DNA from: an uncultured Fretibacterium sp.
GTDB taxonomy: Bacteria > Synergistota > Synergistia > Synergistales > Aminobacteriaceae
DNA length: 64,000 nucleotides
Direction of reading: 5' to 3'
Assembly (NCBI GenBank): GCA_946186205.1
Contig: CAMHMH010000001.1
Span: 372,001-436,000 of the forward strand
Part shown: positions 13,171 through 54,973 of the stretch, one piece after another
Numbering within the stretch: position 1 is the first letter of the stretch
Layout of the letters: every line of letters begins with the position of its first letter
Notes under the pieces: model-generated
What the model was told of the DNA's origin: nothing
Database searches by the model: none
The model's input: only the letters and a program-made list of their open reading frames with translations
Made by a program: the position numbers and the translations under genes

Positions 13171-14074
13171 TCACTTGTACGAGTCTATTACGTGCTGAAG
13201 AATTGACGAAGGAGTCAGCCTTTCAGAGTCAAATTTATATGACATCTTGTGAAGGTCGCTTAACCCGGCAAAATATTTCATTTTCTCATCGGAATAATCA
13301 TCATATGCTGCCTTGCCCATTTCAATCCACGGGGCATTATCAACATACGGGACTCTGCTCCATTCTTCCGGGTATTTCTTTGCCGCCATCTTGAAGAACA
13401 TGTGAAACAAAAAATAATGTATCAGGTAATTATGACTCTTCCAGTACTCGAACAATAAATCCCTTGTAAGTGTGATTATCGGGTTGTGAGCTTCTGAGAC
13501 AATGAACCAGCTTGATGCGACCATGTAGAAAGGATACAGGTTTGACGTGTTTGACGCGAACAATGGAAGCTGCATAAATTCCGTGAACTTACGCCCGGTA
13601 CAGAAGACAGTAGAGTCTATCCATGTCCCGCCGTGCTGTATGAGAAGCTCTGCTCTGATTATGTCGCTAAAATGAGTGTGAGAGATGATGCCTCTGTTGT
13701 GCTTGTCGATGATGTAACCTGGAAGGCTGATATAGTCTGAGATGTTGTACTGATCGAGCGTGATGATCTTCTTGTCGGGACACCAGAAGTGCAATGACCT
13801 AAGGCAGGCTTTGCATACTGGCGGAGCATTGTCCTCACCCTGAAGCCACAAACGCCAGATTATATCTTTACCCCCCCCCCCCCCCTTGCTGAGTAATTTT
13901 ACTGAGCTTGTACTCGGATATGAACGGGCGGTATTTTCTGCTGAGGTATAAATACATTAGGTTGCTCGCAGTTTCCCATGGAAGAATGTTATACAATATC
14001 CTCAAAGGTATTTCATTGTATCTTCCCTCAGAAAGAAGCTCATGAATTTTTCTGATTTTGCTTGTTATGCTCAT
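13171..14074 (-). CDS. Capsular polysaccharide-type glycosyltransferase, interrupted by a 15-G tract (phase OFF)
   Basis: Two frames make one gene. From ATG 14074 (AAGGAGGC upstream) 68 residues are read, ending in five Gly codons and TAA at 13868-13870. The remaining ~227 residues continue in another frame ('KDIIWRLWLQGEDNAPP'). The break is exactly at a run of 15 G (coding sense). With 14 or 17 G the frames fuse into a 300-residue protein aligned end to end with its 297-residue paralog at 14139-15032. Family features: 'IIWRLWLQGED', 'FSDIIRAELLIQHGGTWIDSTV' (Caps_synth/Gly_transf_sug type, GG.W.D motif), so it probably transfers a sugar to a surface glycan. Its 3' end is almost identical to that of the paralog. 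Confidence 0.85.
13871..13885. repeat. Homopolymeric tract, 15 C on + (15 G in coding sense)
   Basis: Fifteen consecutive C inside a glycosyltransferase gene. The paralog has unrelated, non-repetitive codons at this point. Tract length 3n+2 keeps the frame open; 15 closes it. Confidence 0.95.
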
Positions 14075-27652: not shown

Positions 27653-27728
<76 letters not shown>

Positions 27729-27770: not shown

Positions 27771-27779
27771 TGATATAAT
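27771..27779 (+). promoter_or_regulatory. Extended -10 promoter upstream of GT10 gene
   Basis: TGATATAAT, divergent from the tRNA promoter. A transcript from about 27786 would include AAAGGAG (27798-27804), the ATG at 27820 and the pentanucleotide repeat. Confidence 0.5.
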
Positions 27780-27805
27780 CATCGCGAAAAATCCTAGAAA
27801 GGAGC

Positions 27806-27834
27806 TTGACACAAGGAAAATGGCTGTGTATAAT
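27806..27834 (+). promoter_or_regulatory. Consensus sigma-70 promoter TTGACA-N17-TATAAT at the GT10 repeat
   Basis: TTGACA at 27806-27811 and TATAAT at 27829-27834 with exactly 17 bases between them. The start of transcription would fall at about 27841, inside the CCACA repeat. Confidence 0.6.
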
Positions 27835-27835
27835 T

Positions 27836-27859
27836 CCACACCACACCACACCACACCAC
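27836..27859. repeat. Pentanucleotide repeat (CCACA)4 plus CCAC
   Basis: Four perfect CCACA units and a partial fifth, lying between a perfect promoter/ATG (27820) and the body of the GT10 frame. The ATG frame is out of register with the GT10 frame at this repeat number; one unit fewer puts them in register. Confidence 0.85.
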
Positions 27860-27863
27860 CTTA

Positions 27864-28958
27864 TTGCCTGAATACAGGGTAACATTTCTGCATTATCTTT
27901 GCACTAGTATTGACGCAAAAGAGCTTGCGCGCATGATGTACCTTCGTGATAAGGAACTGACAGACAGGCTTGTAATTGATAATGAAAATCCTGACTATAT
28001 TATAGTAAGTGAGACGTGCTTTTCGCACTTGGAGGATAGCCTGAGGCTGAAAGATTACTTGCGCAGAAGAAAAGACAGCATATTTATATTTCGCTGCCAT
28101 GAATGCATTGACCCCGACTTGAATCTGTTTGATTACGCGCTTGTATGGAATTCTGATCTTGTATGCGGGGACAGAGTAGCGCACATTGTGCCTTATATCA
28201 GCGTCAGCAGGGAGGGTACTGTCATCAGCGATATTACGCGTGAGGAAGCTCGCAGGAAGCTCGATTCGAATCCGGGCTTCTGCAATTTCGTATATTCCCA
28301 TCAGTCAGAACCCAGAGATACATTCTTCAGGCTGCTATCACAGTACAAGCGTGTAGACTCTCTCGGCCCGCACATGAATAATTCTGACGCTCCTGTCAGC
28401 AGAGACGCTGAAGACTGGTACGCTCTGAGCATAAAAATGAAATCCGGCTACAAGTTCAGCATAGCAATGGAGAACTCAAGCTATAAGGGATACACTACCG
28501 AAAAGATAGTCAGCTCGCTTCAGGCTCATACCGTCCCGATTTACTGGGGTGATCCGGCTGTAACAGATTTCATAAACCCGAAAGCATTCATTAACTGCAA
28601 CGATTATCCTTCATTTGACGCAGTAATAGAGCGGGTGAAAGAAATCGACAATGATGACGAATTATGGCTTGATATGGTAACCCAGCCGATGCAGACAGAA
28701 GAACAGCATGACAAGATATTACGCATGCGTGATGAGAATGACGCGTTCATACGCAATATATTCACTCAGGACATAAAGAAAGCAAAAAGACGGCCTGTAG
28801 GAATATGGCCCGATACATTCATAAATAATTTTACAGGGGTTCTCGGCACACTTCATCCCTTTCGCATAAAGGCAAAGCGCGCTATACGCAAAGCACTGCG
28901 CAGATTTGTTCCGGTAAAATCAAGATCCGCGCTGAAGAAATTTCTCCATATGTCATAA
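27864..28958 (+). CDS. Glycosyltransferase family 10 (fucosyltransferase-like), repeat-controlled start
   Basis: 364 residues from the TTG at 27864. The C-terminal half carries the FucT signature: 'KFSIAMENSSYKGYTTEKIVSSLQAHTVPIYWGDPAVTDFINPKAFIN', as in bacterial alpha-1,3/4-fucosyltransferases; a polybasic C-terminus ('RRPVGIWP', 'RIKAKRAIRKALRRF') could contact the membrane. It probably decorates a surface polysaccharide. The TTG has no ribosome site. ATG 27820 (AAGGA upstream) would read through the CCACA repeat into this frame if one unit were lost, giving about 377 residues. Start and expression state are therefore uncertain. Homologous transferases in other bacteria are known phase-variable genes. 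Confidence 0.82.
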   Translation: MPEYRVTFLHYLCTSIDAKELARMMYLRDKELTDRLVIDNENPDYIIVSETCFSHLEDSLRLKDYLRRRKDSIFIFRCHECIDPDLNLFDYALVWNSDLVCGDRVAHIVPYISVSREGTVISDITREEARRKLDSNPGFCNFVYSHQSEPRDTFFRLLSQYKRVDSLGPHMNNSDAPVSRDAEDWYALSIKMKSGYKFSIAMENSSYKGYTTEKIVSSLQAHTVPIYWGDPAVTDFINPKAFINCNDYPSFDAVIERVKEIDNDDELWLDMVTQPMQTEEQHDKILRMRDENDAFIRNIFTQDIKKAKRRPVGIWPDTFINNFTGVLGTLHPFRIKAKRAIRKALRRFVPVKSRSALKKFLHMS

Positions 28959-44404: not shown

Positions 44405-44520
44405 GATGATTCCTCCCTGAAAAGTTTTTGAGTCATTCAGGAAAAATTATACCGTCAAAATATCACCTTTCACAGCAAATCTTAATCAGCGATTCATTCT
44501 TGGGACTCTTGAAGCGAACC

Positions 44521-44750
44521 GACGACTCAAAATTGAAGCTCTCAAAACCTAGCCGATGAGTCAAAACCGAATCAGCGAGTCAAAATTTAACGAGTCAAAA
44601 CCAAGCTGGCGAGTCAAAACCGAATCGACAAGTCAAAACTGAAACGCTCAAAACCAAGCTGGCGAATCAAAACCAAATCAGCGAGTCAAAATTCAAACGC
44701 TCAAAACCAAGCTGGCGAATCAAAAGCAAACCAACAAGCCGAAATTTGAG
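44521..44750. repeat. Minisatellite, 53-bp period, upstream of mazG
   Basis: Copies 44555-44608 (54 bp), 44609-44661 (53), 44662-44714 (53) and partial copies at 44521-44554 and 44715-44750. Each copy contains three ~18-base sub-units built on 'GCGAGTCAAAACC'. The two middle copies end in the identical 'ACGCTCAAAACCAAGCTG'. No gene in the 44405-44823 gap. The array has no open frame of interest on either strand. Confidence 0.85.
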
Positions 44751-54701: not shown

Positions 54702-54730
54702 ATGACAATTTAGTTGAAATGTGCTATTAT
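54702..54730 (+). promoter_or_regulatory. Promoter ATGACA-N17-TGCTATTAT-type before the ACAGC repeat
   Basis: ATGACA at 54702-54707, 17-base spacer, TATTAT at 54725-54730 with TG at 54722-54723. The transcription start would fall just before the repeat. Confidence 0.45.
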
Positions 54731-54741
54731 ACAAAATTTAG

Positions 54742-54773
54742 ACAGCACAGCACAGCACAGCACAGCACAGCAC
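54742..54773. repeat. Pentanucleotide repeat (ACAGC)6
   Basis: Six perfect ACAGC units plus AC, about 200 bases before the start of the giant Ig-repeat gene and 11 bases after a promoter -10. Confidence 0.9.
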
Positions 54774-54973
54774 GAGCCTAACTATTGTCTTTTTTCAGTC
54801 CTGCAAAACTAATATCCATTCAAGAAACATAATCACGCTTCGTTTATTGGGGAAGGTTTCATCATACAGTCGCGAGGAAAAGCCGCCTTAACGAGTCGTG
54901 AATGATTCACACGCGCGCAAAAAGGGCATTACGGATTTCATTTCACGATTTTCATATGGAAGGTGAAAAATTT

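Follow-up and report, generated by a model that had tools for sequence, protein, structure and literature searches.

The GT10 (alpha-1,3/1,4-fucosyltransferase-like) gene of an uncultured Fretibacterium sp. very probably stands under a translational phase-variation switch, one of a genus-wide set of leaders that precede mostly cell-surface glycan genes. The gene was studied in a stretch of 64,000 nucleotides (positions 372,001 to 436,000 of contig CAMHMH010000001.1, assembly GCA_946186205.1), referred to below as the window. Phase variation through repeat slippage has been studied in detail in a few pathogens; here one recurring design appears to serve a gut-bacterial genus for switching a large number of surface-glycan genes. 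Judged from the sequences, the kind of switch is a known one (a translational repeat switch), and what appears to be new is a shared leader with a promoter abutting the repeat and with many different repeat units.

The GT10 locus and its orthologues

The following elements were located in the window and are used throughout.

27653 to 27728, minus strand: tRNA-Arg (CCG), found with ARAGORN; divergent neighbour by which the syntenic GT10 site is recognised in related species
27771 to 27779, plus strand: P1, an extended -10 element (TGATATAAT), putative promoter of the translatable mRNA, with a start at about 27786
27798 to 27804, plus strand: Shine-Dalgarno (SD) sequence AAAGGAG, conserved in the leader family and in most repeat-free orthologues
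27806 to 27811, plus strand: -35 element of P2, TTGACA, from the sequence scan
27820 to 27882, plus strand: ATG 27820 and the 20-codon OFF-phase frame with its stop, from the sequence and the leader family
27829 to 27834, plus strand: -10 element of P2, TATAAT, 1 nt before the repeat
27836 to 27859, plus strand: (CCACA)4.8 tract, the proposed slipping element, found with TRF
27864 to 28958, plus strand: GT10 frame (PF00852), open back through the repeat
54719 to 54781, plus strand: a second cassette of the same type, an upstream frame holding part of an (ACAGC)6.4 tract (54742 to 54773)

The anatomy and the frames of the locus, like the family and the register states of the orthologues described below, were read directly from the sequences. 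The tract consists of four CCACA units followed by CCAC (TRF score 48, 100% match), and the distance from ATG 27820 to TTG 27864 is 44 (2 mod 3). Because the ATG and GT10 frames thus differ by 2, the gene is out of register (OFF) in this assembly, and ATG 27820 yields a product of 20 residues, MAVYNSTPHHTTPPYCLNTG*. The GT10 frame itself is intact, with 364 codons from TTG 27864 to the stop at 28956-28958. Four CCACA units between the ATG and the GT10 frame, the frame offset of 2 and a perfect TTGACA-N17-TATAAT (27806-27834) had all been reported in a preliminary description of this DNA and were found as reported. Its calculation that one unit fewer opens a continuous frame was also reproduced, with an offset of 39 and 377 open codons to the same stop, as arithmetic only. 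AAGGA, which it noted upstream of the ATG, is present at 27813 but is not conserved, whereas the relatives share AAAGGAG (27798-27804).

In the proposed switch, transcription from P1 would give an mRNA carrying the SD and the start codon ATG 27820, from which the ribosome would read on through the CCACA tract. Slipped-strand changes of 5 bases per unit would then place the GT10 frame in or out of register; 4.8 units would be the OFF state, with the 20-residue product, and a suitable shift in unit number (modulo 3) would restore register, with a presumed effect on the glycan.

The GT10 frame matches PF00852 with 70.7 bits (E 1.6e-19), above the curated cut-off of 23.9, and its nearest solved relative is the alpha1,3-fucosyltransferase of PDB entry 2nzw (E 4e-21, residues 137-278), which we take to be the Helicobacter pylori enzyme. 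The product is accordingly annotated as a GT10 fucosyltransferase-like enzyme, with transfer of fucose from GDP-fucose as its predicted activity.

Related species were searched at the same site. A CCACA tract is found at the tRNA-Arg-flanked GT10 site of two of them (G021 and G010), and in both the ATG before the tract is in frame with GT10 (380 and 391 codons, respectively). A third genome (G003) has a CCACA tract before a GT10 gene, out of frame; a fourth (G002) lacks the tract, and there a GTG preceded by AAGGAG shares the frame of GT10. Both register states therefore exist, between species: in frame at loci L019 and L023, out of frame at L112 and at the locus of the window. The tRNA-Arg gene lies beside GT10 in six of the seven loci scanned (L018, L019, L021, L022, L023 and L024; not L020). 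In the repeat-free orthologues the upstream promoter P1 is kept, the SD is mostly kept and the TATAAT of P2 is lost, its absence being seen by eye in 4/4 such loci (L020, L021, L022 and L024).

That the GT10 gene is a decaying pseudogene with a chance repeat is very improbable. The ATG frame does stop after 20 codons, as such a reading would have it, but the 364-codon frame is intact, in-frame versions exist in related species and the leader recurs across the genus.

Internal poly-C/G tracts of 11-14 are present in other GT10 homologues from the genus (L028, L031/L047 and L046), some of which are split into two pieces at the tract. The GT10 family may thus be switched in several ways within one genus.

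The leader family across the genus

Judged by its leader, the GT10 locus is one member of a genus-wide family of putative switches, which the preliminary description had overlooked. The shared order of elements is an upstream -10 (P1), AAAGGAG, TTGACA, ATG, TATAAT (P2) and then the repeat. A search for AAAGGA(N)CTTGACA returned nine places, one of them inside coding sequence; seven of the other eight run straight into a tandem repeat, and the eighth (L015) is repeat-free and fused in frame to a pyruvyl transferase.

A sequence-only model (R1) was built from 10 leaders and run on 43 genomes of the genus. At E<=0.01 it matched in 23/43 genomes, two of which (G037 and G042) count as false matches, as the places matched in them (L154 and L155) show no leader features. 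The 80 leaders fetched were the best 80 of at least about 150 matches, one place (G029:C247) being exchanged for G000:C7. Together with 11 earlier leaders they made 91 rows, from which five were dropped (L012, L103 and L116 as duplicate leaders, L154 and L155 for want of leader features) to give a set of 86, which includes the 10 leaders behind the model. Loci related by descent are counted separately in this set, and the choice made by the model is biased towards leaders whose -35 and -10 are good, a bias that only the 464-kb census described below and the GT10 orthologues escape.

With the fetched part being the best 80 of at least about 150 matches, a repeat follows 72/86 non-duplicate leaders (74/91 with all rows; 63/76 once the leaders used to build R1 are removed). 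Among these 72 (drawn from the same best 80 plus the 11 earlier leaders) the unit is 5 bases long in 41, 7 in 30 and 2 in one, so that none is a multiple of 3, and all 22 distinct units are stop-free in every frame. When the letters of the units were shuffled, a mean of 3.1 units contained a stop (P(0) = 0.018), and 9/22 reverse complements contain one. An ATG lies in the -35/-10 spacer of 83/86 leaders, and 77/92 spacer ATGs are in one frame despite offsets of 8, 11 or 14, both counts again being for the best 80 of at least about 150 matches plus the 11.

Leaders were divided into two classes. In class I, to which the GT10 locus belongs, the frame of the gene is open through the repeat; 11 or 12 of 38 such loci (best 80 of at least about 150, plus 11) are in frame, depending on which ATG of L151 is used, the one at offset 15 (out of frame) or the one at offset 8 (in frame). 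This share is about the one third expected of a free frame switch. Among repeat-free leaders with an open frame the ATG is in frame in 4/7 (same best-80-plus-11 set). Of those out of frame, L137 and L143 hold repeat remnants and L123 has its own start. These three out-of-frame cases weigh against the switch reading, as does the long distance from SD to ATG (about 15 nt at the GT10 locus and in most leaders, about 9 where the ATG is at offset 8). The orthologues, the frame behaviour of the leader family and the unit lengths nevertheless support the translational switch that the preliminary description had put forward as one of its two readings.

The downstream gene of class II loci (24) retains a start of its own after the repeat. 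One repeat-exiting frame is open to within 10 nt of that start in 22/24 loci (shuffles: mean 10.0, maximum 17), often as an ATGA overlap, and 16/24 frame ends fall within -2 to +4 of it (shuffles: mean 7.1, maximum 13); many of these loci are orthologous, so that the 24 are not independent. As assembled, eight of the 24 loci stand in the coupling register. The arrangement suggests phase variation through translational coupling, a mode that would not apply to the GT10 locus and for which no precedent was found among the papers that a literature search listed.

The most frequent families among the 74 downstream frames scanned are bacterial sugar transferases (6), MBOAT acyltransferases (6), GT2 (4) and nitroreductases (4), with pyruvyl transferases (3), GT10 (3), GT61 (3), GT11 (2), methyltransferases and LicD (1) among the further targets. 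These families are in keeping with variation of the surface glycan. The four nitroreductase-family frames behind a cassette have no obvious surface-glycan function.

For ten of the 80 fetched leaders (the best 80 of at least about 150) the contig ends no more than 130 nt downstream, against 0.57 expected, an excess that would fit assemblies breaking at tracts which are unstable or repeated. Within a genome, spacers and units resemble each other slightly more than between genomes (0.567 vs 0.516, permutation P 0.006), and the same unit recurs more often within a genome (0.152 vs 0.091 between, P 0.02), which suggests copying or conversion between cassettes inside genomes.

Two wider distributions were considered and set aside. 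Outside the genus, 1/38 genomes of other genera matched at E<=0.01 (G075), and the stretch concerned (L202) is ordinary sequence without a repeat. The exact leader pattern had 0 matches in viral_contigs, and a virus-borne cassette was rejected.

Promoters P1 and P2

Perfect TTGACA-N16-18-TATAAT sites number 17 in the Fretibacterium genome, and six of them run directly into a 5- or 7-base tandem repeat. For an unselected census, all arrays in 464 kb of its sequence (the window and 20 further stretches) were collected. Nine have a unit of 5, 7 or 8 and at least 3.6 copies. A sigma70-like site lies just upstream of all nine (score 10-12 of 12; background P(score >=10) = 0.00225), and in 8/9 the -10 adjoins or overlaps the repeat (-2 to +2 nt), whereas in the remaining one it is 11 nt away. 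The spacer holds an ATG in 7/9 of these sites; at L191 and L196 its place is taken by GTG or TTG. None of the 11 remaining arrays (units 4, 6 and 12) scores above 8 on either strand. The embedded promoter beside the repeats is no accident, and the census led to rejection of CCACA as a chance repeat.

A perfect TATAAT occurs 10-50 nt upstream of the SD, at the position of P1, in 51/85 leaders (best 80 of at least about 150, plus 11), compared with 40/5000 random positions. The -10 of P2 lies at N16 or N17 and, counted from the ATG, falls in codon frame 0 in 34 leaders, in frame 2 in 33 and in frame 1 in 3; since the spacing is kept whatever the codon frame, what is conserved is the DNA rather than the peptide. 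Leaders with a repeat have a better -10 match than leaders that lack one (P = 0.024), and across 72 leaders the match falls slightly with copy number (rho -0.25, P = 0.03). Since repeat-free GT10 loci retain P1 and in most cases the SD but, by eye, have lost the -10 of P2, P2 seems tied to the repeat and not to expression. P2 is a conserved part of the cassette.

The preliminary description had held that slippage could alter either translation or transcription. Translation fits better. A promoter-spacing switch was rejected, as the tract is outside the -35/-10 spacer and starts 1 nt downstream of the -10. A second transcriptional reading takes P2 as a real promoter whose mRNA begins inside the repeat and is translated from TTG 27864, the repeat number tuning the 5'-UTR or leader. 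The TTG exists, P2 is a perfect sigma70 consensus like the tRNA promoters of the same genome, and the sigma70-like sites upstream of 9/9 census repeats are in keeping with it. A start at TTG 27864 is nevertheless unlikely, as no SD precedes it and it would cut into a conserved LLP motif that reaches upstream of the TTG; in the repeat-free orthologue L022 the motif is spelled TTA TTA, which argues that this stretch belongs to the protein itself, rather than preceding a TTG start. A tuned UTR also leaves unexplained why no unit is a multiple of 3, why the units are stop-free, why the ATGs keep one frame and why frames overlap downstream starts, and the -10 of P2 is missing in repeat-free orthologues that retain P1. 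This reading is therefore regarded as quite improbable. Against the translational switch it may be held that P2 transcripts would begin inside the repeat and that the switch has no need of them.

Two further functions of P2 were considered. As an addition of our own to the translational switch, the open complex at P2 might melt the tract and raise slippage while expression comes from P1. We put this forward tentatively: the -10 abuts or overlaps the repeat in 8/9 unselected cases, stays at N16 or N17 whatever the codon frame, matches better where a repeat is present and is absent from the 4/4 repeat-free GT10 loci, whereas the negative correlation with copy number opposes the simplest form of the idea and the model search favours leaders with a -10. 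P2 might instead keep up basal transcription regardless of phase, of use chiefly to genes with an SD of their own (class II). The 24 class II genes with a start after the repeat could be translated from such a transcript, but P2 is also found in class I, where its transcript is without an SD before the gene, and this function is possible rather than expected. That the genus, one of gut Synergistaceae, built its set of switches from a single cassette in which P2, a housekeeping promoter lying over the translation start, melts the tract and sets its slippage rate, with the mRNA coming from the upstream promoter and with either in-frame fusion or an upstream ORF that ends at or misses the next start as output, is a doubtful synthesis. 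A strong promoter beside every such repeat raises a testable question, namely whether cells employ promoters to render selected repeats hypermutable.

At many loci a conserved box is found within about 15 nt downstream of the repeat (ATTAT in 19/64 flanks, shuffle mean 3.0; TTATT in 21/64, shuffle mean 3.8), which together with the TATAAT before the repeat makes a short inverted repeat that flanks the tract. A general antisense promoter in the ATTATT box was considered and, by eye, was not consistent.

Known repeat switches and further loci

The opa genes of Neisseria, a single gene family, carry a pentanucleotide (CTCTT) in a coding leader that is part of the signal peptide, and a 1997 study by Belland reportedly links promoter strength to opa phase variation, to go by its title, a link in keeping with the proposed action of P2 on slippage. 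The leaders described here resemble opa in having a pentanucleotide coding tract directly after the start and many loci per genome, and differ in having unrelated enzymes as targets and a promoter that lies over the stretch from SD to repeat. Switching of H. pylori fucosyltransferases occurs through homopolymer tracts inside the gene. The GT10 locus shares with them the enzyme family and the switching of frame, and differs in its pentanucleotide leader; phase-variable GT10 fucosyltransferases of H. pylori are reported in PMC2583950.

For Haemophilus influenzae, PMC2651432 describes translational phase variation of LPS genes and hsdM by tetra-, penta- and heptanucleotide tracts, with a (GACGA)4 tract that switches at a high rate. 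On that account the systems are alike in having an in-frame repeat with a unit that is not a multiple of 3, frame shifts by unit change and surface glycan targets; the present one belongs to another phylum, and many genes and many units share one leader with an SD, a start codon and an overlapping promoter next to the repeat. The same source places a heptanucleotide tract in the promoter region of hmw1A and hmw2A, where it modulates the level of expression and is not read in frame (PMC2651432). There, as here, the tract is near promoters and upstream of the gene; unlike in hmw1A/hmw2A so described, the frames, the stop-free units and the stop/start overlaps found here point to translation.

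In one Beggiatoaceae genome, many arrays of TAACTGA heptamers lie just upstream of start codons (PMC4679880). There a single stop-containing unit upstream of the start is a proposed protein-binding site, and the abstract proposes no coding through it (PMC4679880). A full-text and wider literature search, with subscription papers mostly outside its reach, returned no paper on phase variation in Synergistota.

The leader of the second cassette of the window, before (ACAGC)6.4, is a divergent copy with a sigma70-like ATGACA-N17-TATTAT (score 10 of 12). It lies about 200 nt before a frame of 1886 residues (ATG 54974) with a signal-peptide-like start; no frame from the tract reaches ATG 54974, and the longest ends at 54889.

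A search for three exact units found a single further CCACA tract in the Fretibacterium genome, (CCACA)7.4 on contig C4, which shares the leader and precedes, out of frame, an initiating bacterial sugar transferase (L008, 6693-7818; C4:46692-47817). Loss of this transferase step could affect the whole glycan. Loci at the start of contig C2 (L012) and the end of C10 (L017) of the same genome share 1500 identical bases and the same leader, with a (CGAACCA)n tract cut off by the contig end, either as a duplicated locus or as an assembly effect.

At 13871-13885 of the window, a minus-strand frame that resembles a polysaccharide enzyme is interrupted by a run of 15 C (G on the coding strand); as the two halves are in different frames, a second, homopolymeric switch is likely, OFF in this assembly. 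At 44512-44738 lies a tandem array of 53/106-base units rich in GAGTCAAAACC.
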